A stretch of 33,319 bases of DNA from a virus: positions 1 to 33,319 of IMG/VR virus record IMGVR_UViG_3300017752_000073; one strand, 5' to 3'. Position 1 is the stretch's first letter. Each line of letters begins with the position of its first letter. Both the position numbers and the translations under genes were made by a program. Shown piece after piece: positions 3,201 to 24,187 of the stretch. The notes beneath the pieces are model-generated. The model was given only the letters and a program-made list of their open reading frames with translations. It had not been told where the DNA came from and did not search any database.

Positions 3201-6200
3201 AGGTCTAGATCCTGAACAAACTTACTATATTATATTTGTAAACAATAACGAATTTAAACTTGCGTTTGATGAAAGTTTAGAATTTGCAGTTGACGTACTA
3301 GGAACTAGCACAGGAACACATAAATTCTTCACAGGTATTAAAGAATTTTTTGTAGATGAGATTACTGAATCTCACCAAACATATCAAGAACTTACTCTTG
3401 CTGCTGGCGCTGAAACTCAAACATATGTTCCTGGTAGAGCCATTGCAGGTAATGTTGATGGTACAGGAAACTCTGCAATTGTTTACAGTTGGAAGCCAGA
3501 AGAGAGAAAACTTATTGTAAGTATTGAACAAGTTTTAGTTGGTTCGTCTTTACTACGTGTGCAGTTTAATAACACTTCGACTATTGATGAAGATCATGCT
3601 GTATCTCCGGCAACTACAACTGCTATAGATTCTGTAGGACCAATTACAACCCTAGGTACTGCAAACTTTACAATTAGTTCAACAGCAACAGGTGAGCAAT
3701 TAACAGACTTAGTTAATCTTGTTGAAAAACAAATTTGGTTCCACAGACCAAGTATTGTTAACAGTTCGTCACATACTTGGGAATATGCAGGTTCTGGTAC
3801 AGACTATAACGCACTACCACAAAACGGTGGTAACACTAGAACAGAATTTGAACAATATGAAGAATTGCCAGGACGTGTTTACGCTTCAGGTACAAACGAA
3901 CTTGGTGACTTTAAAGTTGGTGACTTTATTACAGCGTTCAACAGAACTGGTAATATTACATTCCAAAACAAAGTTGAAGTTAATGAATTAGATGCATTGA
4001 AACTTAGTGTAAGTGACGTTGCTATTGAAGAAATCTCAGTAAGTGTAAACTTAGGAGATGACGAACTAGGTGGTCCTAGTGATGGAAGATTAAGCACTCA
4101 GTTAGCAATAAGAAGTTTCTTATCTAATAGATTGGGACAATTTATTGATAAAGCAGTTTCAACAAGTGCTGTTCCAGGAGCAATAATTCAACTTAACTCA
4201 AATGGACAAATTAACAGTGAATTGATACCTGCAACTAGATCATTCCTGAATAGTAACGGCCAAGGTTATTTGTCAAGATTAGAAGTTGTAGAAGATATTC
4301 CAGCGCTAGATTTAAGTGCAGGCGACATTGGTACTGAAGAATACGAACAACAAGAATTAGAACTTAGTGGAACTATAAGTTGGTCAGATGGAGATACTAT
4401 TACACAGTCTGGTCGTCCTTTTGCTATAGGATATGCAAAGGGTGATGGGTCAACTACTAATATATTAATTGTTGCCTCTATAGGCGGCGAATGGATTGCA
4501 GGCGACGATAGTGTTGGTTCAGAATGGTTCGCAGGATCTGGATATAACATTTTCATAAATGGTGTAGACTCAGGTGTGCATGTAAATGCATTAGGTGGAA
4601 GTTCTGCACAAACTGATAACTTCTTCTTACGCTCTAGTAACTCTAGCCAGTATTTGGTTTTAGATGTTCCATCAACACCGTCAGTAACAAATGATACACT
4701 GACTAATGTAGAAAGAACAAGTGACGTTTCAACTTACACTACAACGAATGCCCATAATTTTAATGCAGGCGGTAGTGTAAGAGTTATATGTAATGATCCT
4801 ACTTATACAGTATCTAGTAGAATTATTGCAACACCTACAACAACTACCTTCACTGTAGCAAATGAAGGTGCAGATGAATCTAGTAAAGCAGCAACAGGTT
4901 CAGTGCAGACAACACTAACTAGTGCTGACTCTAACTCACAAGGTGCTGTTACTGATTTACGTATGGGTGTATGCTTAAATGTAGATAACACTAACATTAC
5001 ATCAGGATCAGGATATAGTCCAGCATTGGCTACTGAAATTTATAATAGTGTTAGTTTAACAAACGTAAGTGGCTCAGGTACAGGCGCAAAAGCAAACATT
5101 ACAGTAACTTCGGGTGCTGTAACAGATGTTGACTTAGTTAGAGGTGGTACTGGTTATGCAATTGGAGATGTGTTAAGTGCTGCTGACGGAGACATTGGCG
5201 GCGGTGGCGGCGCAGGCTTTGAAATAGAAATACTTTCTATAGAAGACAGATTGTATGTAGATTTGTTAGGTGGCGAACTTTTTGTTGCAAGTGCTTCTAG
5301 TGTAGACTATGCAGAAGATAACAGTGCTGTTGCTAATAAACAAACAATAACCTTAACAGATACAATTGATCATTTATTCCTAGCAGGTACTATAGGCGGT
5401 GGCGGCCAAGTTAACTACACAGACAGCAGAATCACTATTGTAAATCACGGATTGACAGATGGAGATCCTGTATCATACACAACTGAAGGCAATGTTGCAA
5501 TAGGTGGGTTACTAAACGATCAAGTTTATTATGTAAAACGTATTGACTCTGATATTATTGAATTATATGTTGATTATGCACTAATTACACAAAGAACATT
5601 TACAAGTACTCCGGCAAATAACAATCATAGACTTATTAGATATACTGTAAACATTACTGATAATAGTGTTGTTGCTCCGGCACACGGATTTGCAGCAGGT
5701 GATGCGATTAGATTAGAAGGTTCTGATTTACCGCAGATAAACGCAGAAGATACTGATACTGGTGTTAGATTTTTTGTTGGATCTGTTACTACAAACTCCT
5801 TTACACTTCATTCGTTGCGCTCAGATGCAACAGTAAGTATTAATGGATTAGTTACTCAAGCAAAAGATCTTACTGATGTAGGAACTGGAACAGTTGACAT
5901 AATTCCAAATAACTTACGTATAAACGATGTAGTAAACACTTCAAGTAGAATTAAAGATAACTGGAGTTCACTTGCAGTTACTAACATTGATGCTGAAAAT
6001 ATTGTTTCTGGTACTATTAGTCCAACAAGACTTGCATCCTCAGGTGTAGCAAATACAGAAACATTCCTCAGAGGTGATAGTACATATGCTGTAGCAGTTC
6101 AACATTTACTAAAAGCAAACACTGTAGACAATCCTATTACACTAACTGGATTGAATATAGGTGGAGAATTTTACGAAGACGTAAGTGTAGGTATTGCAAA

Positions 6201-9200
6201 TGTTGATTTAGATGCTGGTGCTACTTTTAGTAGTTTAGGTGTATCTAGATTTTTACAATCACAATTTGATGTAAACGCTGATGCAAGTGGAGAAGTGTTT
6301 ATTAAAGACGGAGTAATAGATGCCGGTACACTAGATGGATTAGATAGCAGTTATTTTTTAAATCCAGCAAACTTAACATCTTCAGTTCCAGTTACTAGAG
6401 GTGGTACTGGGTTGTCGAATTATGCAACAGGTGATATGATTTTTGCTTCAAGTCCTGGTACTATTACTACTTTGCCATTAGGTATTCCGGGTGCATTTTT
6501 AAGTGTAAACGAAGACGGTAATGCACCAGAGTGGAACACTAACATCTTTATTGAAGAAGGACTTGACTTAGGTAGTGCAAGTATTACTTCAGACAGTACA
6601 GGAAACGGACAACTTTATCCTGCTAACATTACAAGTTTATATGTTGGCTTAGATGCAGAAAATGTTAAAATAGGTAAGAGAACAACTGAAAGAGATATAA
6701 CAAACTTTGTACAAAGTTTTGAAGCAAACACAACTACAAGTGTAGTTGTTAATCTTTTACAATCTACTAAGAGCACTGCATCAGATACAGTAAACGATAG
6801 TAACTATATTGAACTTAGTAACACAACTGGACTTATTCCAGGAATGGTTGTTACAGGAACAAGCATTGCTGCAAACACATCAATATCAGGCATAAGCGGA
6901 GATTATATCTTTGTTAGTAATAACACAACAGGTACCATTACTTCAGGAGACACATTAACATTTTCATATACTCCACAAGTTTTAGGCATAGAAGCAGGTG
7001 ATAGCGTTACCATTAACAACAGTGTTGTTACTAATTTAGACGGCACTTGGTTTATTAGTGGTGCTACATTTAACGCAACATCGTTTACTGTTAAGGTAGA
7101 CAACAATGTTACTACTTTATCTAGCACTGCACTTGCAGTAGGACTATCTGTTGTAAGAGATAATACAATGGTTATGAAAAATGAAAACATAATCTTTGGT
7201 AGTGCAGAAGCAAGTTCAACACCATTTAATGCTAATTTAAAAGGCGAAAGTGGAATTGGTTCTAACATTGAAGGCGGAGATATTATACTTACTTCAGGAC
7301 TAGGAACAGGTAATGCAGCAGGCGGCGAATTTATTGTAAAAACAGGCGAAGCGTTAGCAACACCTAGTTCGTTACAACACACGCCTACAACTAGACTTAC
7401 AATTACAAATACAGGTATATCAACATTTACTAATACGGTCTATGCTAAAAACTTATTTCCAACAGACGGCGACAATCAAGGCGTAGTTGGTGATGGTGGA
7501 AATACATGGAGTAATGGTAATTTTACTAACTTTGCTGTTAACAGCGTATTAACTGTCCGTGGTGCAATTGACCTTGCAGATAGTGACCAATTACGCCTTG
7601 GATCAAGTGATGATATTAAACTGTATTATGATGGCACTGGAAATGTGTTTAATATAGAATTAGAATCTGCTGCAACAAAATTAAGTGTTACAGATAACGG
7701 TACAGAAAGATTTAGTATTGCAAAAGCAACAGGTAACACTTCAGTTGGTGGTAATTTAACAGTTGTAGGTGACTTAGAAGTACAAGGTACTGAAACAGTA
7801 TTGAATACAGCAACTCTTGCAGTTGAAGATAAAAATATTGAAATTGCAAAAGTTACTACTCCAACTGATACAACAGCAGACGGCGCAGGTATTACAATTA
7901 AAGGTGCAACTGACAAAACAATTACTTGGAGTAATAATGCTGGATATTTCAACATAAATCAAAGTTGGAACTTAACAAGTGGCCTTGAATATTACATTAA
8001 CGATATAAGTGTTTTGAGTGCAACGACACTAGGGGCAAACATTGTTAATTCAAGTTTGACTAGCGTAGGAACTATTGGAAGTGGTACTTGGCAAGGTTCA
8101 ATTATTTCGCCAACATACGGTGGCACAGGTATAAACAATGGTACCAAAACTATCACACTAGGCGGCAACTTTACACATAGTGGTGCTCATACACTTTCAC
8201 TTACAACTACAGGAAACACAGCACTTACACTTCCAACAAGTGGTACAGTTGCAAACAGAGGTAACCTAAGTCAGTTTGCTGCAACTACTAGTTTACAGTT
8301 GAAAGGTGTAATTAGCGATGAAACAGGCGGCGGCGCACTTGTGTTTGCAGAATCGCCTACGTTTGTAACTGATGTAGATTCTGCAGATTCTACATTTGAA
8401 GTGTTCAACACTCCGGCAACAATAGTTGCGTTTAGTGCTGGTACTGATATTGAGATAGGTGCTACTACTGGTACTACAACAGTTAAGAATAATTTAGTTG
8501 CTGATAGTATTTCATTACAAGGTGCTGATTTTAATGATGGTAACATTACTAATGTTGGTAGCATTGGCTTAGATACAATTGTAGCAGATGCTCTTACAAA
8601 CGGTTTTGGCTCCATTAACTTTGCTGCAAGTACACAAGTTAATATTGATAATGTAACAAATGCTACAAGCACAACAACAGGTGCGTTAATTGTAGATGGC
8701 GGCGCTGGATTTGCAAAAGATGTTTGGGCTGCGAATTTTTACGGTAATGGTAGCACATTATCTAATGTAGACAATTATGGTAGTTGGACATTAAAAGAAG
8801 GAAACGGCGAAGAAACTTCAACAGTTGGATCAGGCCAAACTGCGCACTTTGAACAAGGCACAGGTATGCAAGTTGAACTGACTGCTGCAAGACAGTTAAC
8901 ATTTACTAACACTGACCGAGGCTCTTCGCAAAACATCTTTAAAAGCGTTCTTGCTGAACAGAGCGATGGTACAGATATTGGAACAGTTGTTGCTGACACT
9001 AATAGTGATACATTAACAATTAGAGAAAATGGAGGCATGTCTTTAGGAGTAGATGCAACTAATGATATTATAACTATTGGTCATGCAGATACAAGTTCAC
9101 AGACTTCTCTTGCAGTTGACAACACTAATGGAACTGTAATACAAGATCTAAGTGTAACAATTGATACGTATGGACACGTAACAGGATTGTCACAAACTAG

Positions 9201-10290
9201 TGTTAACTTAGATACTCGCTATGTTCTTGAAACTGGTGATACAATGACTGGTATGCTTACTGTTGATATGAATAACAGTAACGAAAAAATACGTATGCAA
9301 GGCGATGCCAACGATAGTCCGTTTATTTCGTTCTACCAAGATAACAGAGCAGGCTTTATACAATATAATCATTCACAGCAATCAATGAGAATTGTTAATG
9401 ATATTAGTGATGAAGAACTACGTATTACCTCAGGCGATAATGGTTTACAGTTTATTAATGGTGGAACAGCATATACAGTTTATCATACTGGTAACTCGTC
9501 GACTCTAGCAACTGTTGCTGGTACAGTAACAAGAGATGAGTATAGAAACTTTGGAACAGTTGCATTTACTAACTCTTCAAACACTGCTAACTTTATAGCA
9601 GAATTAGAATCAAAAGGATTCTTTGATTACAGACATGCTGTATGTAAGAATAGTTGGAGTTATGCTGGTAATAGTGATATTAGTGATACAGGGTTTGGTA
9701 CATTTGAATTAGCAGGTTGTGTAATTGAGACATGGACTGACAACTCAAGCGATACTGTAAGAGGTAATGTTACTGTCCGGGTTACAAGACCAAACACAGG
9801 CGGCGACGGTTCTAGTGTACTTGTTTATAATGACCAAGGTCCATCATATTCGCCGGGGTGGAGAGAAATGGTTTCTACTAGAAGTAGTGTAACTAATATT
9901 ACTGGTGAAATACGTGCTACAGGCGAGATTACAGCATACTATTCAGATGAACGACTAAAAACGTTTACTGGAAAGATCGGAAATGCATTAGATAAAGTTA
10001 AAGCATTGAATGGTTATTTGTATGTTGAAAATGATCATGCAAAAGAATTAGGCTTTGATAACAATATTTCACAAGTTGGTGTTAGTGCGCAGGAAGTAAA
10101 AGATGTGTTGCCTGAGGCAGTAAGTATAGCACCATTTGATATGAATGCTCAAGGTGATAGTAAATCAGGTGAAGATTATCTTACAGTTAAGTACGAACGT
10201 ATGGTACCGTTGTTAATTGAAGCAATTAAAGAGCAACAAAGTGAGATAGATGAACTCAAGGCAATGGTTAAAAAACTTCTCGATAAATAG
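217..10290 (+). CDS. Giant tail-fibre protein with C-terminal S74 intramolecular chaperone
   Basis: This 3357-aa virion fibre very likely mediates host recognition. The first ~40 residues (KHKRSS..GNKP..SQLE.GELALNTADGK) match an N-terminal motif common in marine myophage fibres, probably for attachment to the virion. Residues ~160-430 look like a pectate-lyase-type beta-helix entry (NVIYVSAEKGNDANDG, then Gly/Asn-rich rungs). Residues ~490-930 are richer in predicted helix. The remainder is Ser/Thr/Asn/Gly-rich shaft with GGTG motifs near residues 2060 and 2630 and a TRYVLETGDTMTG segment. The last ~115 residues form a peptidase S74 / endosialidase-type chaperone beginning SDERLK. By family analogy Ser3243 is the self-cleavage residue, and a C-terminal coiled coil follows. 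The start is set by AGGAGG. The last codons GAT AAA TAG also form the next late promoter. The fibre role is secure; the receptor is unknown. Confidence 0.9.
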   Translation: MATKLKHKRSSIAGNKPEISQLESGELALNTADGKVFLLRDDNTVQDITQRIFENDTEIKVSDTGDSSGSITININGDEKFTATNASFNFNNDVDIQDGQKLTLRELSASGADGISIKSPDTLEAGYDLTLPGLAGTVGQLLRTSGDGQLEFVDADFFGGNVIYVSAEKGNDANDGVNAPVLTVKRACQLASALIYNADGSLTNKRVNVKVAVGDYTEQNPIIVPDNTVIKGDGLRGCIIRPANAGEDMLRVRNACYFGEFTFRDGVDANFVPTITADYACAFDDPSDSTVDRNGYTNLPTSRPTITTSPYIQNCSIISFLGMNGAKIDGAKVATPNVPLNAIEAENPVIGAVPQQGKSMVANAFTMLSFGGTGWRLLNDAYAQIVSCFEIFMLNGVYCQSGGYCSITNSATNFGLYALRASGYSPKAFEFDRGYVTQTGQSEGQQTLKIIGITRETPVEEFVLRFRDADYKIAYDLIEMDTDTLATDTVTWINNNIAAASPSIFAGFVYSESDAFNDIQTLGDAIRYDALFNANYRTINAALAMLRGSEPSLLGSNVTVTVDVLTQAKGFFSGRLTDATAISRSNDLWDEVIDIVTNGDADTVAGDGTADAYSIPDPTGYNSTYLVGYGDARAQIIANTNFIKEEMIAWTAEQVANQTAPFTAAYSYDASILEKEMTYVINALRYDLTYGGNAEIINAAKAYFTTENLDTAAQKLGHIAILDRLQSIVTDIVQENTVTKTPANSTTQDTSGTPASLAIGTATGALIQVISNYVDNGVNPAKTSPSSSWVGNATLIEQCLGTMDDAELIQVAQEVIEYTNNQIQTNLWYNFSYDNAKCLRDAKLILDAVKKDTWGTGNTYTRGAGLSYYFRNLQDSSQISIAGQELQTIAAIDELKSLTNTMLSSYGISAEARAFVDSRFDVVTTIINDPDDLPDPQAVSSDGDITSTFKSGEVAVDFDGNSGVSAATDTFAITNHGFINAQKVVYNNNSNPSVPGLDPEQTYYIIFVNNNEFKLAFDESLEFAVDVLGTSTGTHKFFTGIKEFFVDEITESHQTYQELTLAAGAETQTYVPGRAIAGNVDGTGNSAIVYSWKPEERKLIVSIEQVLVGSSLLRVQFNNTSTIDEDHAVSPATTTAIDSVGPITTLGTANFTISSTATGEQLTDLVNLVEKQIWFHRPSIVNSSSHTWEYAGSGTDYNALPQNGGNTRTEFEQYEELPGRVYASGTNELGDFKVGDFITAFNRTGNITFQNKVEVNELDALKLSVSDVAIEEISVSVNLGDDELGGPSDGRLSTQLAIRSFLSNRLGQFIDKAVSTSAVPGAIIQLNSNGQINSELIPATRSFLNSNGQGYLSRLEVVEDIPALDLSAGDIGTEEYEQQELELSGTISWSDGDTITQSGRPFAIGYAKGDGSTTNILIVASIGGEWIAGDDSVGSEWFAGSGYNIFINGVDSGVHVNALGGSSAQTDNFFLRSSNSSQYLVLDVPSTPSVTNDTLTNVERTSDVSTYTTTNAHNFNAGGSVRVICNDPTYTVSSRIIATPTTTTFTVANEGADESSKAATGSVQTTLTSADSNSQGAVTDLRMGVCLNVDNTNITSGSGYSPALATEIYNSVSLTNVSGSGTGAKANITVTSGAVTDVDLVRGGTGYAIGDVLSAADGDIGGGGGAGFEIEILSIEDRLYVDLLGGELFVASASSVDYAEDNSAVANKQTITLTDTIDHLFLAGTIGGGGQVNYTDSRITIVNHGLTDGDPVSYTTEGNVAIGGLLNDQVYYVKRIDSDIIELYVDYALITQRTFTSTPANNNHRLIRYTVNITDNSVVAPAHGFAAGDAIRLEGSDLPQINAEDTDTGVRFFVGSVTTNSFTLHSLRSDATVSINGLVTQAKDLTDVGTGTVDIIPNNLRINDVVNTSSRIKDNWSSLAVTNIDAENIVSGTISPTRLASSGVANTETFLRGDSTYAVAVQHLLKANTVDNPITLTGLNIGGEFYEDVSVGIANVDLDAGATFSSLGVSRFLQSQFDVNADASGEVFIKDGVIDAGTLDGLDSSYFLNPANLTSSVPVTRGGTGLSNYATGDMIFASSPGTITTLPLGIPGAFLSVNEDGNAPEWNTNIFIEEGLDLGSASITSDSTGNGQLYPANITSLYVGLDAENVKIGKRTTERDITNFVQSFEANTTTSVVVNLLQSTKSTASDTVNDSNYIELSNTTGLIPGMVVTGTSIAANTSISGISGDYIFVSNNTTGTITSGDTLTFSYTPQVLGIEAGDSVTINNSVVTNLDGTWFISGATFNATSFTVKVDNNVTTLSSTALAVGLSVVRDNTMVMKNENIIFGSAEASSTPFNANLKGESGIGSNIEGGDIILTSGLGTGNAAGGEFIVKTGEALATPSSLQHTPTTRLTITNTGISTFTNTVYAKNLFPTDGDNQGVVGDGGNTWSNGNFTNFAVNSVLTVRGAIDLADSDQLRLGSSDDIKLYYDGTGNVFNIELESAATKLSVTDNGTERFSIAKATGNTSVGGNLTVVGDLEVQGTETVLNTATLAVEDKNIEIAKVTTPTDTTADGAGITIKGATDKTITWSNNAGYFNINQSWNLTSGLEYYINDISVLSATTLGANIVNSSLTSVGTIGSGTWQGSIISPTYGGTGINNGTKTITLGGNFTHSGAHTLSLTTTGNTALTLPTSGTVANRGNLSQFAATTSLQLKGVISDETGGGALVFAESPTFVTDVDSADSTFEVFNTPATIVAFSAGTDIEIGATTGTTTVKNNLVADSISLQGADFNDGNITNVGSIGLDTIVADALTNGFGSINFAASTQVNIDNVTNATSTTTGALIVDGGAGFAKDVWAANFYGNGSTLSNVDNYGSWTLKEGNGEETSTVGSGQTAHFEQGTGMQVELTAARQLTFTNTDRGSSQNIFKSVLAEQSDGTDIGTVVADTNSDTLTIRENGGMSLGVDATNDIITIGHADTSSQTSLAVDNTNGTVIQDLSVTIDTYGHVTGLSQTSVNLDTRYVLETGDTMTGMLTVDMNNSNEKIRMQGDANDSPFISFYQDNRAGFIQYNHSQQSMRIVNDISDEELRITSGDNGLQFINGGTAYTVYHTGNSSTLATVAGTVTRDEYRNFGTVAFTNSSNTANFIAELESKGFFDYRHAVCKNSWSYAGNSDISDTGFGTFELAGCVIETWTDNSSDTVRGNVTVRVTRPNTGGDGSSVLVYNDQGPSYSPGWREMVSTRSSVTNITGEIRATGEITAYYSDERLKTFTGKIGNALDKVKALNGYLYVENDHAKELGFDNNISQVGVSAQEVKDVLPEAVSIAPFDMNAQGDSKSGEDYLTVKYERMVPLLIEAIKEQQSEIDELKAMVKKLLDK
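10282..10289 (+). promoter_or_regulatory. Late promoter (GATAAATA) overlapping the fibre stop codon
   Basis: The octamer is formed by the fibre's final Asp and Lys codons and the first two bases of its TAG stop. The predicted start near 10295 falls at the base of the 10294-10321 hairpin, so a late transcript would begin with that stem-loop. Confidence 0.55.
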
Positions 10291-10293
10291 TAT

Positions 10294-10321
10294 ATAGGAG
10301 TCGATTTTCTTCGACTCCTAT
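10294..10321 (+). other. Perfect 11-bp stem-loop after the tail-fibre gene
   Basis: ATAGGAGTCGA (10294-10304) pairs without mismatch with TCGACTCCTAT (10311-10321) around the 6-nt loop TTTTCT. No T-tract follows, so it is not a canonical intrinsic terminator. It may act as a 3' end stabiliser or processing site of the fibre message, or as a 5' cap for a transcript from the overlapping late promoter. Confidence 0.6.
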
Positions 10322-10376: not shown

Positions 10377-10556
10377 ATGGCTTTACCCGCAACAGGAACT
10401 GCAATGAGACAATATGCTGATGTTAGCGTATTTTTCAGTGGGCCCTCGACTAATGTTGCCCTAGGAACGTTAGGTGCATACATTAGTATAACAGTAGGCA
10501 ATCAAATTTCTCTAAGTTCATCTTTTGGTGGAATTGGTCCGCCTGACTATCCATAA
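10377..10556 (+). CDS. Small 59-aa protein resembling phage tail/fibre N-terminal peptides
   Basis: This short frame begins MALPATGTAMRQYADVSVFF and ends at the TAA at 10554-10556. A good ribosome-binding site (TAGGAAG, about 10364-10370) precedes the ATG. The opening MALP.tG.. followed by a short Ser/Gly-rich stretch with LG and S.S..FGG resembles small tail-associated proteins and fibre N-termini in marine phages that begin 'MALP.SG.lS...I..E.G', but the match is weak. The next gene starts 13 nt downstream, so the two are likely co-translated. Function unknown. Confidence 0.6.
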   Translation: MALPATGTAMRQYADVSVFFSGPSTNVALGTLGAYISITVGNQISLSSSFGGIGPPDYP

Positions 10557-10569
10557 CACGGAGACAAGA

Positions 10570-10947
10570 ATGAAAAGTTTATATGAAGTCATTAACATTG
10601 ACTTAGCACAAGAATATACTAAAGAACGTAAAAGAGTAGCAGCAACATCACTTGAACTTGATGACGATCTTGCTGAACAAGTTTTCGCAGCAATTGACGA
10701 AATGGACATTCCAGATGCTGATGAACGTCATCATTGGATTACAAAAATTGCACATTCTGCTGCTGCTGATTTACTTACATTAGGAAAAGTACAACCTGAA
10801 AATATGTTAGCAATGGCTGCATTACAACTAGACGATTTTAATGAATGTGTTCAGATTGCTACAAGCACTGCACGTAACTTAAATGATGCTACAGTGTCAG
10901 CAGAGAAACAAATAGCAACAGATACAATACCCGACAGCATGACATGA
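10570..10947 (+). CDS. Unknown acidic, helix-rich 125-aa protein
   Basis: I place the start at the ATG at 10570, preceded by CGGAGAC 5-11 nt upstream. A longer frame exists only with a TTG start inside the previous gene. The protein begins MKSLYEVINIDLAQEY and is rich in Ala, Asp and Glu, with segments that look helical (LDDDLAEQVFAAIDEMD, then a second helix-like block around AHSAAADLLTLG). I see no signal peptide, membrane segment or catalytic motif. It overlaps the glycosyltransferase-like gene by 4 nt (ATGA), which implies translational coupling, so it probably belongs to that cassette. Function not recognised. Confidence 0.7.
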   Translation: MKSLYEVINIDLAQEYTKERKRVAATSLELDDDLAEQVFAAIDEMDIPDADERHHWITKIAHSAAADLLTLGKVQPENMLAMAALQLDDFNECVQIATSTARNLNDATVSAEKQIATDTIPDSMT

Positions 10948-11555
10948 AAATAGCAATTAGTGTGCCAGTACGTGATACTGTACACGCTAGTTTTGCATAT
11001 TGTCTTGCAAATCTTACGGCACAACTTATAAGAAATAATATTGATTATACGTTGAACTTTGATCACGGATCTGTTATTGCAGGACAGCGTAATAACTTAG
11101 TATCCAATGCAATAGAAACCAAAGCATCTCATATACTTTGGTTAGATTCTGATATGCATTTTCCTTCTTCTATAGTAAGCAGTTTACTACGTCACGAAAA
11201 GGATATAGTAGCATGTACTTACAGTACACGATACTCTCCTAAGCGCAGTGTGGCATTTACAGATAGAATGGATTTAGATCAAAGACTAGATAAGAAGTTT
11301 GGACTGAATGAAGTATTTGCTGTTGGCATGGGATGTATGCTAACAAAAACATCGGTGTTTGAAAAATTACCTAAACCTTGGTTTCAATATATTTGGAACG
11401 AAGATAGAGAAGATCTAAGCGGAGAAGATATATACTTTTGTAGTCAAGCAATTGATTATGGCTATACTGTATTTGTAGATAGTACTGTTAGTAACAAAGT
11501 TGCGCATTTAGGAACAAAGGCATTTTTAATAAATGAAACAAATGAATTCAATTGA
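10944..11555 (+). CDS. Small GT-A-type glycosyltransferase-like protein
   Basis: The 203-aa protein looks like a compact GT-A glycosyltransferase, an enzyme that moves a sugar from a nucleotide-sugar donor. It opens with a beta strand typical of the family (KIAISVPVRDTVH). It then has GQRNNLVSNAI, and ILWLDSDMHFP carries a DxD-like motif (Asp68-Ser69-Asp70) that would bind the metal and nucleotide. Later come VGMGCMLTKTSVFEKL and the acidic SGEDIYFC, which match the acceptor-side pattern of family-2-like enzymes. At ~200 aa it is a minimal domain. The start overlaps the previous stop (ATGA) and the end overlaps the repeat-protein gene by 23 nt, so the genes are coupled. Likely substrates are virion fibres or host surface glycans; that is inference. 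Confidence 0.7.
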   Translation: MKIAISVPVRDTVHASFAYCLANLTAQLIRNNIDYTLNFDHGSVIAGQRNNLVSNAIETKASHILWLDSDMHFPSSIVSSLLRHEKDIVACTYSTRYSPKRSVAFTDRMDLDQRLDKKFGLNEVFAVGMGCMLTKTSVFEKLPKPWFQYIWNEDREDLSGEDIYFCSQAIDYGYTVFVDSTVSNKVAHLGTKAFLINETNEFN

Positions 11556-14079
11556 ACGGTTTTCAAGATTAGGTAAAAATAATTATACTGGTCTTGATAT
11601 TCTAAAAAATCATATTTTTCAAAAACATCCTGTATGTTTTACTGACGACATGGATGATTACAGCCAAGTAGAAAAATATGATTCTGAATATGTTTGGTTG
11701 GTGAAAACAGGAACGGAACTTTCTAGTAAGTTTCCTTACGGATATAAAACAAATACAAAAAATGTAATTTGTTTTCCTTATATGTACAAAGGAAACAGAA
11801 AAGTATATAGTTGGGATTTAGTAAAATTAATTCCAAATTCAAAAGATAGAATTACAGAACCTGTAAAAGAAAAAATAATTGTAGGACACTATGATGCATG
11901 GAAAGGCAAAGATCATTTTGATATATTTCTATGCGGAAGTGAAGATACTGCTTCTTATAAATCACTACAAGAAAAATATAATTTTAAAACTGTGCAATCG
12001 TTTGAAGAAGCGCAAACAAAATCTGAGACAGATATGTTTTGGTTTATTCCTGATGATGTAGAAGTTTACAGTTCTTTTAATATGAAAAGATATGTTCCAG
12101 ATGAATGGAGTATGAATTTTACACATGTATTTGGAAATGATAAACTAAACGAATTTGACGGTATTGGATTATTTCCAAAAAAGTATACTCCTACAGAAAA
12201 AGAATTAGACTTTAGATTTTATGTTAATAAAAAAGAAATAAAATTACCTGCAAGTAAACGTAGCAACTATCCTGTATTTTATGTAGACACATTTGAAGAT
12301 TACCAAAATGCTCTACAGCAAAGTAACAGTGAATTATTTTGGATTATGTTTCCTAATGTAGAGGCAGATATAAATTTCAATTTTGATATAACTTTTAAGA
12401 TTACAAATGTTTACGACAGGCAAACTAATCATGCGTTTAAGCATGTGGTTGATAATGAAGAAACATACGATGGTATATGGCTGTGCAGTAAGCACGTACC
12501 AATTTCAAAAAATGAAATAGAACATAGGCACATAGTTGATCGTAAAGAATGGGACATAGTAGCAAGTGGTCCTAAATATTATAACAAGTTTTTTATCGAT
12601 ACTTACGATGAATACTTACACGCTTTGAACACAAGCGAAACTGAAATGTTTTGGGGTGTAAGTAAAAATTTGAAAGTAGATCCAAATTTTAAATTTGATT
12701 TATTCTTTGATGATAGAACTGATGAATTTGAATACGAAAGAAATGAAAATCACACATTTATACATAAAGTAAACAACGAGAATTTTTATAACGGTATTTT
12801 TCTGTTTAGTAAAAATAAGGAAGTGTCACAAAGAGAAATTGAACATAGGCATCTTACTACAAGAAAAGAATGGGACATAGTAGCAAGTGGTCCAGTAAAA
12901 TATGATATTTTTGATGTAAACAATTATGATGATTATTTGTTTGCTTTGCATAATTCTAAAACAGAAATGTTCTGGGCAAAAAGTGGCAACGTAAGTGTGT
13001 TTAAAGAATTCCATTATGATTTGTATTTTACACACGACCAAGAGTATGAAAGAAATATCAATCATGCATTTGCACACATGTACAATAACGAAAAAACATA
13101 TCACGGATTGTTCTTGTTTACAAAGCATAAACCTTTATCAGAACGTGAAATAAACAATAGATATATTATAGAAGCAAAGCATCATCCTGTTTTTGTTTCT
13201 CAGTCTATTGTGTATGACATCTTTGAAATTGATAGTTGGGACGAATATCAATATGCTCTTACAACATCCAAAACAGAAATGTTTTGGGCAACAAGTAAAA
13301 ATATTAAGGTAGATCCTAAGTTTAAATTTTCTTTGTTCTTCGATCCAAAAGATGATGAATATGAATATGAACGTAAAGAAAATCATGCATTTATACACAA
13401 AGTAAATGATGAAATATTATACAACGGAATATTTTTATTTTCAAAACATAAGCCTGTAACGCAGCAAGAAATAGAACATAGACATATTTTAGAACGTAAA
13501 GAATGGAGCACAGTAGCAAGCGGTCCTTTACAATACGACATATTTGCTATTGATACTTGGTTAGAATATGACTTAGCACTACAAAATTCTAAAACAGAAA
13601 TGTTCTGGGCAACAAGCAGAAATATTGATACAAGTAATTTTGATTTTGATTTATATTTTACTCACGACAATCATTATGATAGATTTACTAACCATGCATT
13701 TATACACAATGTTGATGGTAAAGAATATTACAATGGATTATTTCTAATGAGTTGTCACAACGAAGTATCTAAACATGAAATAGAATCTAGACATATAATT
13801 GATAGAAAAGAATGGGACATAGTAGCAAGTGGCCCTATAAAATATGATGTGTTTACAGTAGACTCTTATGAAGATTATTTAGACGCAGTTGACAAATCAA
13901 CAACTGAAATGTTTTGGGCAGTAAGTTCAAATGTAGATACAAGCGAGTTTGATTTTGACTTGTACTTTACACATGATAATGAATATGATAGATATATCAA
14001 TCATGTGTTTAAACACGAAGTTGATGATGATGTAATGTTCAATGGTGTATTTTTATTAACAAAAAATATTAAGAAATAA
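11533..14079 (+). CDS. 848-aa protein made of tandem ~103-aa modules (TEMFW repeats)
   Basis: The protein is almost entirely tandem repeats. The core motif (S/T)-E-(M/L)-F-W ends at residues 170 (as TDMFW), 270, 374, 481, 585, 692 and 795, giving a period of 100-107 residues. A decayed copy (EYVWLVKTG) lies near residues 52-60. Each module reads roughly: F.(I/V)D.Y.DY..AL..S.TEMFW, N(V/I).., F.FDLYF.HD..Y.R..NHAF.H.V, Y(N/D)G(I/L)FLFSK. A linker EIEHRH...RKEWDIVASGP follows most modules. The first full copy (FDIFLCGSED..., TDMFWFIPDDVEV) resembles GT-A-like segments of phage proteins in which 'TDMFWVVD.D' carries the DxD; later copies have lost these acidic residues. There is no signal peptide or membrane helix. 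The gene follows and overlaps the glycosyltransferase, so a shared role in glycan handling is plausible but unproven. An alternative in-frame ATG is at 11542. Confidence 0.85.
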   Translation: MKQMNSIERFSRLGKNNYTGLDILKNHIFQKHPVCFTDDMDDYSQVEKYDSEYVWLVKTGTELSSKFPYGYKTNTKNVICFPYMYKGNRKVYSWDLVKLIPNSKDRITEPVKEKIIVGHYDAWKGKDHFDIFLCGSEDTASYKSLQEKYNFKTVQSFEEAQTKSETDMFWFIPDDVEVYSSFNMKRYVPDEWSMNFTHVFGNDKLNEFDGIGLFPKKYTPTEKELDFRFYVNKKEIKLPASKRSNYPVFYVDTFEDYQNALQQSNSELFWIMFPNVEADINFNFDITFKITNVYDRQTNHAFKHVVDNEETYDGIWLCSKHVPISKNEIEHRHIVDRKEWDIVASGPKYYNKFFIDTYDEYLHALNTSETEMFWGVSKNLKVDPNFKFDLFFDDRTDEFEYERNENHTFIHKVNNENFYNGIFLFSKNKEVSQREIEHRHLTTRKEWDIVASGPVKYDIFDVNNYDDYLFALHNSKTEMFWAKSGNVSVFKEFHYDLYFTHDQEYERNINHAFAHMYNNEKTYHGLFLFTKHKPLSEREINNRYIIEAKHHPVFVSQSIVYDIFEIDSWDEYQYALTTSKTEMFWATSKNIKVDPKFKFSLFFDPKDDEYEYERKENHAFIHKVNDEILYNGIFLFSKHKPVTQQEIEHRHILERKEWSTVASGPLQYDIFAIDTWLEYDLALQNSKTEMFWATSRNIDTSNFDFDLYFTHDNHYDRFTNHAFIHNVDGKEYYNGLFLMSCHNEVSKHEIESRHIIDRKEWDIVASGPIKYDVFTVDSYEDYLDAVDKSTTEMFWAVSSNVDTSEFDFDLYFTHDNEYDRYINHVFKHEVDDDVMFNGVFLLTKNIKK
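11920..14079 (+). repeat. Tandem coding repeat array, seven units of about 310 bp
   Basis: Seven in-frame units make up residues 130-848 of the repeat protein. At DNA level the linker is nearly invariant: a 26-nt stretch beginning AAAGAATGGGACATAG is identical at 12544-12569, 12865-12890 and 13807-13832, with a diverged copy at 13498-13523. Such identity over silent positions points to recent duplication or gene conversion between units. Confidence 0.85.
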
Positions 14080-19081: not shown

Positions 19082-19112
19082 TGGCGTAAATCCACCTAAT
19101 TTCCTTGTTCCG

Positions 19113-19120
19113 GATAAATA
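19113..19120 (+). promoter_or_regulatory. Late promoter (GATAAATA) of the tail sheath gene
   Basis: The predicted start is at 19126, giving a 30-nt leader that includes AAGGAG (19140-19145) 10 nt before the ATG at 19156. Confidence 0.7.
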
Positions 19121-19155
19121 TTATTGACGGCAAATCCATAAGGAGATTAATTAAA

Positions 19156-22100
19156 ATGGCATTAGTATCACCAGGCGTCCAGGTTAGTGTTGTAGACGAG
19201 AGTTTTTATACTCCATCCGCTCCGGGCACAGTCCCACTAATCTTTGTCGCTACGCAAACAAATAAAACTAATCCAGGGGGCACCGGAATCGCTCCTGGAA
19301 CAACAGCAGCAAATGCTGGAAAAGTGTACGCAGTTACATCACAACGTGAATTAGCAGAAACATTTGGAGATCCAATTTTCAAAACAGACGCTAATAACAA
19401 TCCTATTCACGGTGGTGAGCAAAACGAATATGGCTTACAAGCAGCATACAGTTTTCTAGGCGTTGCAAACCAAGCATATGTAGTTAGAGCAGATGTTGAC
19501 TTAAATGCTATTCAAGCAAGTGCAACACCAACAGCAGGTGCTCCTGCAAATGCATCATACTGGTTTGACACAGATGATTCGAAATACGGTATTTTCCAAT
19601 GGAATGGTTCAGCAGGCACTGTAACTGGCGGTCAGTCTTTTACTAATGTTGCACCAGACGTAATTACTGATACATCAGACGTTGTTGATTTTGCAGGCTC
19701 TGATTATACTCCAAAAGCATCTGTAGGTGCAATTGGTGAGTATGTTTTAGTTGCAGTAACAACACTAAACAGTTTGTGGTACAAAAATAGTAGTAACACA
19801 TGGGTAGAAGTAGGATCAGCAGCATGGATTGCTAGTCATCCAACAGTTGCAGGTACAGGTACAGGCGCTATTGTTATTGGCGAAACTATTGTTATTAATG
19901 GTTCATCTGTTGCAGCAACAGGAACTACATTAACTACACTTGCATCTGACATTAACACAGCAGCGATTGCAGGAATAGTTGCAAGTATTTCAAACGGCAA
20001 GTTGAACATTGCTTCAAACGGTACTGGTGGTGATTCAGTTACTATTGGCGGTGCAGCAGATTTACTTACTGCCGCAGGTATTGCATCTGGCACATATTAC
20101 ATTCCAAAACTAAGTATTGATCCGCATACAAGTGTGCCTGCTTACAAAACAAGCGACACAGAATCAAGACCAACAGGTTCTTTGTGGATAAAAACAACAA
20201 CACCTAACTTAGGTGCAAACTGGAGTGTAAAACAGTACAATGCTAACACAGCATCATGGGTAACAGTTCCAGCAACACTACACGAATCAAACGCCGCAGC
20301 AATTTATGCTTTAGATAGTTCCGGTGGCGGATCTAATCTAGCAGAAGGCACTGTGTTTACACATTACAACACAGCAGGCGCAAGCAGTCCGATTGCAGAT
20401 TTTAAACTTATGCGTAAAAACGGCTCAGGCATATTAGTTGCTCAAACTGCATCAGCAGTAGCACTAGGTGCAGGCACTTATACATTTACAATAAGTGAAT
20501 CAGTAGCAGGAAGTGCAACAATGTCAACACCAGTCACAGGATCATTTACTGTAACAGGTGCTGAAACTGCTACAGAGACAGCAGAAAAAATTGTTGAAGC
20601 AATTAGTAGTACAGGACTTACAAATATCCAAACAAAAGTATCTACAAATGATAAAGTAAACATCATGCACAAATTAGGCGGTGAAGTTGCTATTGTTGAT
20701 ACAGACGGTGGTTTGGCTCTTATGGATCCTAATAACTCTAGCAACATTGACTATACTCCAGGTACAGATGAAAATACATCACCGAAGCAGTATTCAATGT
20801 CGCACTTCAAAAAATTAACTTATACAGCATCAGAGAGCGCACCAACAGCAACACCTACAACAGGTACACTATGGTATAGTTCTATTACTGACGAAGTTGA
20901 CTTAATGGTACACGATGGGCACACATGGAAAGGTTATGCAAATGTATATCCAAACACTGATCCAGCAGGACCAATTGTTGCAGCAAGTGCTCCTTTAACA
21001 CAGTCAGATGCTACAGCGTTAGTTGAAGGTGACCTTTGGGTATCTACAGCAGACTTAGAAAACTACCCAACACTATACCGTTGGACATCAGCAGGTGCAT
21101 GGGAATTAGTTGATAAAACAGATCAAACAACTGAAAATGGTGTACTATTTGCTGACGCACGTTACAACACAACAGGTGCAAACAGTGCCGCAGCAGGTAC
21201 AATTGCTGCACTATTAGCAAGTGATCACTTAGACCCAGATGCTCCAGACCCAGCACTTTACCCACGTGGTATGCTGCTATGGAACACACGTAGAAGCGGA
21301 TTTAATGTTAAGCGTTTCGAGCGTGATTACATCGATGTTAATGGTACAAATCCAAGAGCAAGCGACGAGTCAATGAGTGCTTATGCACCAAACCGTTGGG
21401 TTACTGAATCTGCAAACAATACAGATGGCAGTGGTTCTTTTGGACGCCATGCACAAAGAAAAGTAGTTGTGCAAAAACTACAAGCATCAGTTAATTCAAA
21501 TGACGACATTCGTGATGATGAGTCAAGAGTGTTTAACATGATTGCTACACCAGGATATCCTGAACTAATCGGTGAAATGATTAACCTAAATAATGACAGA
21601 GGCTTAACAGCATTTGTTGTAGGTGATTCACCAATGAGACTACAGTCAAACACTACTTCAATTAACAACTGGGCAAACAACGTTGCACTAGCAGTTGAAG
21701 ATAATGACGACGGTCTTGTAACTAGTGATGAATACTTAGGTGTGTATTATCCAAGTGGATTTAGCAGTGATAACTTTGGCAATAACATAGTTGTTCCTTC
21801 GAGCCACATGGTAATGCGTACTATTGCACTTAACGACCAAGTTGCTTATCCATGGTTTGCACCAGCAGGTACAAGACGTGGCGGAGTTACTAATGCAACT
21901 GCAACAGGTTACATTAATGCAGAAGGTGAATTTACAAGTATTGCACTTAACGAAGGACAACGTGATGTTCTTTATAGTGCAAATGTAAACCCAATTACAT
22001 TCCTAAGCGGAAGTGGTTTAGTTGTATTTGGACAGAAAACTCGTGCAAGTAATGCTAGTGCATTAGATAGAGTAAACGTTGCAAGACTAGTTGTATACTT

Positions 22101-22383
22101 ACGTAGACAATTGAAAGTACTTGCTAAACCGTATATCTTTGAACCAAATGATAAAATTACACGTGATCAAGTTAAATCAAGTGTAGAGTCATTAATGAAT
22201 GAACTTATTGGTCTAAGAGCCATATACGATTTCCTAGTTGTATGTGATGAATCAAACAACACTGCGGCACGTATTGACAAGAATGAACTTTATGTTGATA
22301 TTGCAATTGAGCCAGTGAAAGCAGTTGAATTCATATACATTCCGCTAAGATTGAAAAACACAGGAGAGATTGCAGGTCTTTAA
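19156..22383 (+). CDS. 18: Contractile tail sheath protein, gp18-like, with a large inserted region
   Basis: The sheath subunit surrounds the tail tube and contracts to drive infection. I take the ATG at 19156, next to AAGGAG, giving MALVSPGVQVSVVDES and 1075 aa; a 17-residue longer frame has no such site. Residues 1-120 and ~650-1075 form the conserved sheath: the N-terminal SPGVQV..VDES arm, YPRGMLLWNTRRSGFNVKRF, and the C-terminal domain ending FIYIPLRLKNTGEIAG. T4 gp18 has about 659 aa. The excess is an insert (~120-650) with several W-rich modules (GSLWIKTTTPN, GTLWYSSITDE, GDLWVSTADLE) and two Ala/Thr/Gly-rich beta blocks (around residues 230-310 and 435-530). The insert probably projects from the tail surface. 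Confidence 0.9.
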   Translation: MALVSPGVQVSVVDESFYTPSAPGTVPLIFVATQTNKTNPGGTGIAPGTTAANAGKVYAVTSQRELAETFGDPIFKTDANNNPIHGGEQNEYGLQAAYSFLGVANQAYVVRADVDLNAIQASATPTAGAPANASYWFDTDDSKYGIFQWNGSAGTVTGGQSFTNVAPDVITDTSDVVDFAGSDYTPKASVGAIGEYVLVAVTTLNSLWYKNSSNTWVEVGSAAWIASHPTVAGTGTGAIVIGETIVINGSSVAATGTTLTTLASDINTAAIAGIVASISNGKLNIASNGTGGDSVTIGGAADLLTAAGIASGTYYIPKLSIDPHTSVPAYKTSDTESRPTGSLWIKTTTPNLGANWSVKQYNANTASWVTVPATLHESNAAAIYALDSSGGGSNLAEGTVFTHYNTAGASSPIADFKLMRKNGSGILVAQTASAVALGAGTYTFTISESVAGSATMSTPVTGSFTVTGAETATETAEKIVEAISSTGLTNIQTKVSTNDKVNIMHKLGGEVAIVDTDGGLALMDPNNSSNIDYTPGTDENTSPKQYSMSHFKKLTYTASESAPTATPTTGTLWYSSITDEVDLMVHDGHTWKGYANVYPNTDPAGPIVAASAPLTQSDATALVEGDLWVSTADLENYPTLYRWTSAGAWELVDKTDQTTENGVLFADARYNTTGANSAAAGTIAALLASDHLDPDAPDPALYPRGMLLWNTRRSGFNVKRFERDYIDVNGTNPRASDESMSAYAPNRWVTESANNTDGSGSFGRHAQRKVVVQKLQASVNSNDDIRDDESRVFNMIATPGYPELIGEMINLNNDRGLTAFVVGDSPMRLQSNTTSINNWANNVALAVEDNDDGLVTSDEYLGVYYPSGFSSDNFGNNIVVPSSHMVMRTIALNDQVAYPWFAPAGTRRGGVTNATATGYINAEGEFTSIALNEGQRDVLYSANVNPITFLSGSGLVVFGQKTRASNASALDRVNVARLVVYLRRQLKVLAKPYIFEPNDKITRDQVKSSVESLMNELIGLRAIYDFLVVCDESNNTAARIDKNELYVDIAIEPVKAVEFIYIPLRLKNTGEIAGL

Positions 22384-22448: not shown

Positions 22449-23081
22449 ATGCCAGTCGGATCATTATCTAAAATTACAGTACCTTTGAATAATCAAAGTA
22501 ATGCAAATGGTCAAGGTCTGTTAATGCCAAAATTACAATACCGCTTTAGAGTTGGGCTTGTAAACTTTGGTGTGTCAAACGATACAACAGAACTAACCAA
22601 ACAAGTCCAAGATGTTACAAGACCAAATCTTACATTTGAAAATATGGAATTACACACATACAATTCAAAAGTACATTTGGCAGGTAAACATACTTGGCAG
22701 CCTTTAACACTTACTTTGAGAGACGATCAAAGCGGAAATGTTACACGTTTAGTTGGACAGCAAGTTCAGAAACAGTTTGATTTCCTAGAGCAGTCAAGTG
22801 CAAGATCAGGTCAGGATTATAAGTTTAGAATGAATATCGAAATGTTAGACGGTGGCAACGGTAGAGATGCTGCTTCAACATTAGAAGAGTGGGATTTGAT
22901 GGGTGCATTTATAACAAATGTAAACTATAACACTTTAAACTATGCAGAGAGTGCACCAGTAACGGTAACTATGGAAATACAATACGACAATGCTAGACAA
23001 ATTGGCGTAGATGGTTTCAGTGGTGTTGGTCAAGGCGTTCCAAGAACGATAGGATCAAATGTAACTGGCGTTGGCGGTTAA
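22449..23081 (+). CDS. 19: Tail tube protein, gp19-like
   Basis: This 210-aa protein polymerises into the inner tube through which DNA passes. It has the gp19 layout: a short arm (MPVGSLSKITVPLNNQS), LLMPKLQYRFRVGLVNFG, a central THTWQPLTLTLRDD-like strand (here KHTWQPLTLTLRDDQS), an EEWDLMGAFITNVNYNTLNY segment and a late APVTVTMEIQYDNARQ strand. The length is close to T4 gp19 (163 aa) plus a Gly/Val-rich tail. It follows the sheath gene, as in other T4-like phages. It has its own late promoter, a strong ribosome-binding site and a strong terminator, consistent with high-level single-gene expression. Confidence 0.88.
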   Translation: MPVGSLSKITVPLNNQSNANGQGLLMPKLQYRFRVGLVNFGVSNDTTELTKQVQDVTRPNLTFENMELHTYNSKVHLAGKHTWQPLTLTLRDDQSGNVTRLVGQQVQKQFDFLEQSSARSGQDYKFRMNIEMLDGGNGRDAASTLEEWDLMGAFITNVNYNTLNYAESAPVTVTMEIQYDNARQIGVDGFSGVGQGVPRTIGSNVTGVGG

Positions 23082-23173: not shown

Positions 23174-24187
23174 ATGTCACAGTTCGATAACATAAACAAT
23201 GTTGGGTTTGATCTTAAAGATTATCGCCACGCATCTAAACTATACTTAGAAGGCAATCACAGACTTGCTCCTAAGTATAAATTTCTTTATCATGTTGTCT
23301 TGAATATTAATAGTTCTGCAAGAAATGAAGCACTAACTAATCAAAAAATAAAAGAAATAAACATTCTTGCAAAAATGGTAGATTTGCCTAAATTTAGAGC
23401 AAACGTTACACCAGTACATCAATATAACAGAAAGAAATTAGTACAAACAGGTATTCAATACGAACCGATACAAATTGAATATCATGACGATATGTCAGGG
23501 TTGACTACATTACTTTGGGAAAGTTATTTTAGATATTATTATGCTGATCCGAATTACAGCGAATCAGATGCAGATGGACCTAAAGAGCGTGTTGGTGCAT
23601 ATGAAAGAACTAGAGCAGGACTTAACAAAGCATATGCTAGTGACGAAACATTTAGTGCTAGATTTGGGTTAGACAGATCAGGCAAAAGTCAACCTTTCTT
23701 TAATAGTATTCAAATATTCCAACTTAACACTCAAAGCGGTACGCCAACATATACTGCATTTACTTTAGTAAATCCAATTATAGAAATGATGGAACATGAT
23801 ACACTTGACCAGACTGCAAGTGAATTTACTATTAATAGAATGACACTTGGTTATGAAGCAGTTCAGTATCACAGAGGATATACAAATGTAGGATCTTCGC
23901 CGTCAGGCTTTGGTGAATCTAGTAACTATGATACAGAGCCAAGTCAATACGGTTCTAGTGCTGTTCAAAGTTCTACAGCATTCAATAGTTTAGCAGGCAA
24001 CAGACCAAACGATTTTACCCGCGGTACTGTACCAGAAACGCAAACACAACAATTACAAAAACAATCAACTAGCCCGTTGCAAGGTTCCTTAGTTGATAAT
24101 GTTCAAACAACAAGTGCTAATGGAATAATACTAAATGCAACTGCACCAAGTACAAGTATTACTCAAGCAAGACAGAAGGATTGGTAA
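23174..24187 (+). CDS. Second tail-tube-like virion protein (possible tube/baseplate junction)
   Basis: The 337-aa product looks like a tail-tube-fold protein longer than gp19. It has a KYKFLYHVVLNINS strand, a long middle with RKKLVQTGIQYEPIQIEYHD and SGLTTLLWESYFRYYYAD, and a strand-turn-strand near FTLVNPIIEMMEHDTLD then EFTINRMTLGYEAVQYHRG, the typical end of the tube core. The last ~95 residues are Gln/Ser/Thr-rich and probably flexible. In T4, tube-like proteins outside gp19 (gp48, gp54) start tube growth at the baseplate; I cannot say which, if either, this is. The next gene's ATG overlaps its stop (TAATG). Confidence 0.65.
   Translation: MSQFDNINNVGFDLKDYRHASKLYLEGNHRLAPKYKFLYHVVLNINSSARNEALTNQKIKEINILAKMVDLPKFRANVTPVHQYNRKKLVQTGIQYEPIQIEYHDDMSGLTTLLWESYFRYYYADPNYSESDADGPKERVGAYERTRAGLNKAYASDETFSARFGLDRSGKSQPFFNSIQIFQLNTQSGTPTYTAFTLVNPIIEMMEHDTLDQTASEFTINRMTLGYEAVQYHRGYTNVGSSPSGFGESSNYDTEPSQYGSSAVQSSTAFNSLAGNRPNDFTRGTVPETQTQQLQKQSTSPLQGSLVDNVQTTSANGIILNATAPSTSITQARQKDW

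Follow-up and report, generated by a model that had tools for sequence, protein, structure and literature searches.

A tandem array of degenerate glycosyltransferase half-domains in uncultured phages: a possible accessory arm for phage glycosylation

The nearest described enzymes are the GT2-type glycosyltransferases (GTs) with a GT-A fold (PF00535; WrtF, ThuS/SunS, B4GALNT1). Most relatives of the phage protein considered here likewise carry a C-terminal domain with a DxD motif and a predicted GT-A fold, whereas the protein itself consists of degenerate N-terminal halves of such a domain, seven times over, with no complete catalytic domain. In human LH3/PLOD3, the AC domain has a GT fold that has lost catalysis, is kept beside an active GT, and has been suggested to recognize the collagen substrate (PMC6082870). 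A dead GT-fold domain retained next to an active GT is the best precedent for the array, but LH3/PLOD3 has a single accessory domain where the phage proteins have up to 16 half-domains in variable number, and no sequence relationship between the two was found. The A064R protein encoded by chlorovirus PBCV-1 is a GT with several domains and glycosylates the major capsid protein of that virus (PMC9614988). Its first domain (2p73) ranks second, with a weak score (E 1e-2), among the array's Foldseek matches; the domains of A064R are, however, active and few, and it has no tandem array of dead modules. Finally, in the T4-like marine pelagimyophages, the genome place in which the array is found is occupied by a host-recognition cluster, with GT and radical SAM genes beside the tail fibres and before the neck gene gp14, that is thought to alter the host surface (PMC7029224). 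This cluster differs in that the available part of its description does not mention GT-derived module arrays and names GT8 as the most frequent GT family (PMC7029224).

The array gene and its surroundings

The window, i.e., the whole stretch of 33,319 nucleotides analysed (IMG/VR record IMGVR_UViG_3300017752_000073), is a 33-kb fragment of its virus genome. It belongs to a T4-like myovirus, with genes for a 3357-aa tail fibre, gp15, neck, sheath, tube and terminase, and its DNA has no near match among GenBank phages. The array gene lies between the long tail fibre (3357 aa) and the neck genes and gp15, and the features of this region are as follows.

10283..10289, + strand: ATAAATA, a T4-type late-promoter-like site before the operon, tentative (number of such sites in the window not above chance)
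10570..10947, + strand: small upstream gene in the same gene run, phrog_1409-type (PHROG), ATG start read by eye, syntenic in relatives
10944..11555, + strand: partner glycosyltransferase P0002, 203 aa, DSD at residues 68-70 and GED at 160-162 (Pfam, PHROG, motifs)
11533..14079, + strand: pseudo-glycosyltransferase array protein P0001, 848 aa (continuous ORF, module alignments, profile, AlphaFold model)
11620..11907, + strand: decayed GT-like copy forming the N-terminal extension, about residues 30-125 (hhalign to first modules, common to 19 relatives)
11917..12267, + strand: module 1, first-type, residues 129-245, keeping beta1-alpha1 and the second Asp of DxD (profile, AlphaFold model, VIA)
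12052..12057, + strand: DD at residues 174-175, left over from the DxD motif of module 1 (sequence, family statistics)
12268..12579, + strand: module 2, residues 246-349 (profile)
12580..12900, + strand: module 3, residues 350-456 (profile)
12901..13212, + strand: module 4, residues 457-560 (profile)
13213..13533, + strand: module 5, residues 561-667 (profile)
13534..13842, + strand: module 6, residues 668-770 (profile)
13843..14076, + strand: module 7, C-terminally truncated, without the catalytic GT domain that most relatives have at this point (profile)

A sequence-only reading of this DNA had described a seven-fold repeat of about 103 aa preceded by a decayed N-terminal copy, and this architecture is borne out. 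The internal-module profile finds exactly seven domains in the 848-aa protein, starting at residues 149, 246, 350, 457, 561, 668 and 771, and the N-terminal copy aligns with first modules at E 7e-8 (hhalign). The core motifs stand at residues 51 (the decayed copy, SEYVW), 166, 266, 370, 477, 581, 688 and 791, spaced by 100-115 aa, in modules of 96-107 aa, the last one (module 7) of only about 78 aa. Local alignments among modules 2-7 score above 200 of 200 shuffles (z = 26-56), while module 1 is more distant from the others (z about 3-12, 200 shuffles); the corresponding identities are 38-68% among modules 2-7 and 25-34% between module 1 and the rest. The same reading had noticed an acidic segment in the first unit whose acids are replaced later, and indeed module 1 retains TDMFWFIPDDVEV, the equivalent site being VSKN, KSGN, TSKN, TSRN and VSSN in modules 3-7 and, deviating from these, MFPN in module 2.

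The overlap with a gene for a GT bearing an intact DSD, also pointed out from the sequence, amounts to 23 nt. The product of that gene, P0002, matches Pfam Anp1 (1.4e-9; 38.3 bits, cut-off 28.8) and phrog_1574 (1e-26), and both its DxD (D68, D70) and its GED are invariant in 21 homologues; in cyanophages and others, its more distant relatives bear the label glycosyltransferase or hypothetical protein. An array or GT gene follows P0002 immediately in 51 of 56 loci, usually overlapping it by a short stretch, or in 53 of 56 if a non-ATG start is accepted in L065 and L073, which leaves only L209, L211 and L212 unpaired. The late-promoter argument for this operon is tentative.

Relatives and their C-terminal domain

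Relatives of the array were recovered by profile. No match was obtained with the whole array protein against GenBank phages (tblastn), with the array family in 50,697 GenBank phage records at the sensitivity used, or with the GT domain alone against GenBank phages, even at E 0.1, and a single-protein scan of IMG/VR with the array protein returned no relatives. The module profile detected 521 related stretches in IMG/VR, and 77 of these loci were retrieved and studied. In most of the complete relatives, 0-16 modules precede an intact GT-A/GT2-like domain at the C-terminus. This domain is about 225 aa long and in the alignment is of the type YDIVFISYNEPNADEN / RVHGVKGIHQAHIEAAK / TDMFWVVDGDA / VHVWRSKNPIN / YGYGGVKL / DMTTS / FRECVKL. 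A profile of this domain finds at least 591 IMG/VR stretches, as well as 21 places in genome assemblies, including those of Bdellovibrionia, Streptomyces and Dyadobacter.

DxD is present in all 41 distinct GT-domain sequences. Of four members compared with Pfam GT2 (PF00535), one scores above the cut-off (25 vs 23.3 bits), one falls below it and two give no match. The AlphaFold model of L069, a relative of 552 residues with a first module, two internal modules and the GT domain, has a mean pLDDT of 94.6 and a pTM of 0.83, and in Foldseek it matches GT2-type enzymes (best E 6e-6). Structural alignment of the GT domain (VIA-align) gives Z 11.4 with human B4GALNT1 (rmsd 2.6 over 137 residues), 10.7 with WrtF and 10.6 with ThuS, but IspD-type nucleotidyltransferases score about as high as GTs. 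GT-A enzymes and IspD-type nucleotidyltransferases have a common Rossmann-like core, so similar scores are expected. The assignment of the C-terminal domain as a predicted GT2-like GT-A glycosyltransferase is therefore based on the DxD motif, the Pfam match and the gene context jointly.

The GT domain is missing from the window protein, from L002/L003, L011/L013, L191 and L192, and L184 retains only its helical tail behind a degenerate module; L183 and L073 were discounted because their contigs end at that point, and L065 because an in-frame stop splits the gene. These comparisons indicate that the GT domain is usual at the array C-terminus and was lost in the lineage of the window. That the usual form of the family carries the catalytic domain in cis is not visible from the window alone. 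A frameshift or assembly artefact was considered as the cause of the missing domain and is opposed by several observations: the array gene runs straight into a convergent NUDIX gene, L002 and L011 each have this form in two metagenomes, and L191 and L192 likewise stop with no GT. Between L002 and L011, both GT-less, dN/dS is 0.065 overall and 0.04-0.15 per module, so that GT-less arrays are under purifying selection and do not resemble genes in decay.

GT-less and GT-bearing arrays can occur together, as in a 236-kb virus record that holds the GT-less L003 and a second array, L025, with seven modules and a GT, or in a 330-kb record with L184 and the GT-bearing L010. Some arrays, those of L030 and its kin and of L132, are divided between two overlapping genes that both start with an ATG, one encoding modules only and the other a module and the GT. 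Both the split arrays and the co-occurrence in one record favour the view that an array may work as a separate subunit, in trans.

Many family members on other virus contigs are located in islands of biosynthetic genes. Within the DNA examined, radical SAM genes lie near 65 of 135 array loci and 48 of 66 single-GT loci, further neighbours being methyltransferases and a GT paralogue about 300 aa long. In Bdellovibrionia assemblies, the GT is accompanied by its paralogue and a twitch-type radical SAM gene.

Ancestry and evolution of the modules

Profile-profile comparison (hhalign) relates the first modules to the N-terminal half of the GT domain at E 1.7e-22 and the internal modules to the GT domain at E 8.4e-12, first-type and internal-type modules matching each other at E 3e-36, which shows that the modules share ancestry with the N-terminal half of the GT-A/GT2-like domain. 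The AlphaFold model of the window array (pLDDT 91.6, pTM 0.65) is consistent with this relationship. Its best VIA matches fall on module 1 only (residues 121-245), with B4GALNT1 at Z 8.1 and a beta-1,4-galactosyltransferase at Z about 8, a moderate score; Foldseek matches are likewise moderate (E 9e-3), and the list also includes LH3 and 4ayj, both weak. The structure prediction suggested by the sequence-only reading thus returned GT-A folds, and its view of the units as degenerate GT-A modules agrees with the profile homology as well as with the predicted fold, which tie the modules to the GT2-like domain and not to an unrelated fold.

No lectin or CBM family or fold appeared in Pfam, in NCBIfam or among the structural matches listed, which are filled by GT-A folds, a result that leaves room for a lectin fold. 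PDB sequence searches gave nothing significant. The array's hits to RNA_pol_Rpa2_4, phrog_33652 and PRK01736 in Pfam, PHROG and NCBIfam are attributed to chance, having no passing stretch or a score below the cut-off.

The catalytic motifs have largely disappeared from the modules. Of 92 first modules, 1 has Asp at the first DxD position, and in 387 internal modules Asp does not rank among the eight commonest residues there. At the second position, 79 of the 92 first modules have Asp, and Asn (192), Asp (104) or Glu (26) is seen in internal ones. A DxD was found in none of the modules of the window array protein, module 1 having PDD and the rest being without the first Asp, and a GT profile search of that protein found no full GT-A catalytic domain. 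Both features having been looked for and not found, the window array protein is not classed as a glycosyltransferase. Internal modules further lack the beta1-alpha1 unit, the HGxKGIHxAH segment conserved in the catalytic domain, and its helical C-terminal half. The modules are gutted GT-A half-domains, and since the first metal-binding Asp is lost and the first beta-alpha unit is missing from internal modules, catalysis of transfer is unlikely. Canonical nucleotide-sugar binding by internal modules is also unlikely, because they are without beta1-alpha1 and HGxKGIHxAH.

A tree was built from 119 modules of syntenic relatives; it has few columns per row and leaves many inner forks unresolved. 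First modules form one group in it (support 100/98), and the modules near the GT and at several middle positions also cluster by position. Module positions are thus preserved even as module number varies. The same tree contains lineage-specific duplications, namely modules 5-7 of L182, and modules 3 and 5 of the window with module 6 of L002. An origin by serial duplication, together with coupling to a catalytic-type GT, had been proposed from the window; the duplication is supported by these sequence comparisons, and the coupling by the gene adjacent in 53 of 56 loci and the C-terminal GT fused in most relatives, so that homologues generally do have a glycosyltransferase at hand. Between L031 and L046, synonymous divergence differs from one module to the next, with values from zero to about 1.8 changes per site, and this mosaic points to recombination within arrays.

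Possible roles of the array

The explanation we prefer, with about an even chance of being right, is that the array is a non-catalytic accessory arm of duplicated GT half-domains serving a phage glycosylation machine. The dead half-domains would hold an acceptor, the enzyme or partner proteins for a catalytic GT that acts in cis in most relatives and in trans in the lineage of the window. The acceptor might be a glycan or a repetitive fibre protein, and the trans-acting GT could be P0002, whose gene overlaps that of the array, or a GT-bearing array encoded at another place in the genome. P0002 as a strict replacement of the missing GT was rejected, as it also accompanies arrays that carry their own GT. 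Since the array sits in the place of the pelagimyophage host-recognition cluster, gene context points to a host surface glycan or the phage's own fibre as the candidate target; the substrate, too, is a guess based on such context. The earlier idea of a multivalent sugar-binding partner is possible, with nucleotide-sugar binding counted against it because donor-site elements are lost from the internal modules.

The array could instead be a pure protein scaffold whose modules bind no sugar and hold the enzymes of a glycan pathway together, each position-specific module recruiting a partner. The clustering of modules by position across relatives would fit distinct partners, the donor-site segments are gone from internal modules, and methyltransferase, radical SAM and GT genes neighbour other members of the family; yet the window operon offers just P0002 and one small gene as candidate partners, and module number varies widely among relatives with similar neighbourhoods, which makes this scaffold rather unlikely. 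The position of the array between the 3357-aa tail fibre and gp15, after a late-promoter-like site, would suit a virion adhesin, a structural lectin-like protein near the base of the tail fibre that binds host glycans directly. This we consider improbable, as a catalytic GT domain ends the same chain in most relatives, which would be unusual for a virion fibre, many members reside in islands of biosynthetic genes instead, the array matches no structural-protein family in Pfam or PHROG, and the promoter argument is weak with a site count not above chance.

Metal-independent GT-A enzymes exist, and one of them, 4ayj, turns up as a weak match to the array in Foldseek. Together with the second Asp of DxD kept in most first modules, this might suggest that the modules catalyse transfer themselves, at a non-canonical site that needs no metal, but with neither donor nor acceptor site evident in internal modules that are without beta1-alpha1 and without the helical C-terminal half, such activity is very improbable. 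It is equally hard to credit that the array has no function of its own, its repeats being neutral duplications or a store of cassettes that could recombine into the GT. Varying copy number and the recombination mosaics of neighbouring modules in L031 and L046 would agree with it, whereas modules are kept by position, they lack the catalytic motif and would thus be poor donors, and purifying selection acts on every module measured, in GT-less arrays too (one pair, L002/L011, dN/dS well below 1), a result by which neutral duplication was rejected.

Stated for the family, the accessory-arm explanation would mean that across a widespread set of uncultured phages a dead GT half-domain was duplicated up to 16 times into position-specific modules that serve as an acceptor-binding, processivity or scaffold arm, and that some arms outlived their own catalytic domain and act in trans; this version, in which the pseudoenzyme repeat array is new, could as readily prove correct as not. 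Tandem arrays of degenerate GT half-domains are not described in the family libraries or the open-access literature searched, and while the catalytic domain is of a known kind, the array of dead modules would be a new form. To our knowledge, pseudoenzymes of the GT class are known mostly as single accessory domains or subunits. Because no Pfam, PHROG or NCBIfam model recognizes the modules reliably and the GenBank phage records gave no match at that sensitivity, the family represents a blind spot of present annotation in aquatic phages. The series from a bare GT through 16 dead modules with a GT to GT-less arrays, all kept in related viruses, makes the path from enzyme to repeat scaffold traceable stepwise and the ligands of dead GT domains testable module by module.

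Variation within arrays and loss of the glycosyltransferase domain

Between two related arrays (L031:6342-12380 and L046:3879-9908), synonymous divergence forms a mosaic, with adjacent modules ranging from 0 to ~1.8 synonymous changes per site, and, since neighbouring modules differ in this way, the comparison points to recombination inside arrays. At another locus, L065, a stop codon in frame where two modules meet (7930-8060) cuts the array into products of 846 and 436 aa; because a related ORF (L073:5451-8405) reads through the same position, this stop looks polymorphic. The array gene at L184:7597-9192 retains, behind a degenerate module, just the helical tail of the C-terminal glycosyltransferase domain (GT), the catalytic half being absent, and looks like an intermediate in GT loss.

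Paired arrays, module-free relatives and a neighbouring gene

One virus record, IMGVR_UViG_3300026085_000093 (236,366 bp), holds two family loci: L003, a GT-less array of 7 modules that adjoins tail genes, and L025, at a different site, with 7 modules and a GT. A similar pair, L184 and L010, is found in one 330-kb record.

In Bdellovibrionia-type MAGs, GT family members without modules adjoin radical SAM genes (L160, L161, L163, L168 and L169), some of them on contigs of 0.5-0.9 Mb; a second, paralogous GT is also found in several of these loci, and the radical SAM gene of L160, where the type was tested, is of the NF033640 twitch type. At L192, an 821-aa gene (3987-6449) is placed between a 2-module array and the NUDIX-side genes; its product has no Pfam match and finds weak matches in L207 and L208.

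Other features of the window

ATAAATA motifs resembling T4 late promoters lie a short distance upstream of structural genes, their count being no higher than chance expectation. These sites, and features before the operon and among the tail genes, are as follows.

135, 10283, 17149, 22419, 23162, 28684, 29216: ATAAATA sites
near 10297-10320: hairpin-like inverted repeat, read by eye, 5' of the 59-aa ORF
10378-10557: small 59-aa ORF (MALPATGTAMRQYADVSVFF...), flanked by the tail fibre gene and the operon
19105-22383: enlarged tail sheath gene, 1092 aa, preceding the tail-tube-like pair
22449-23081 and 23174-24187: two tandem tail-tube-like genes, 3' of the sheath gene
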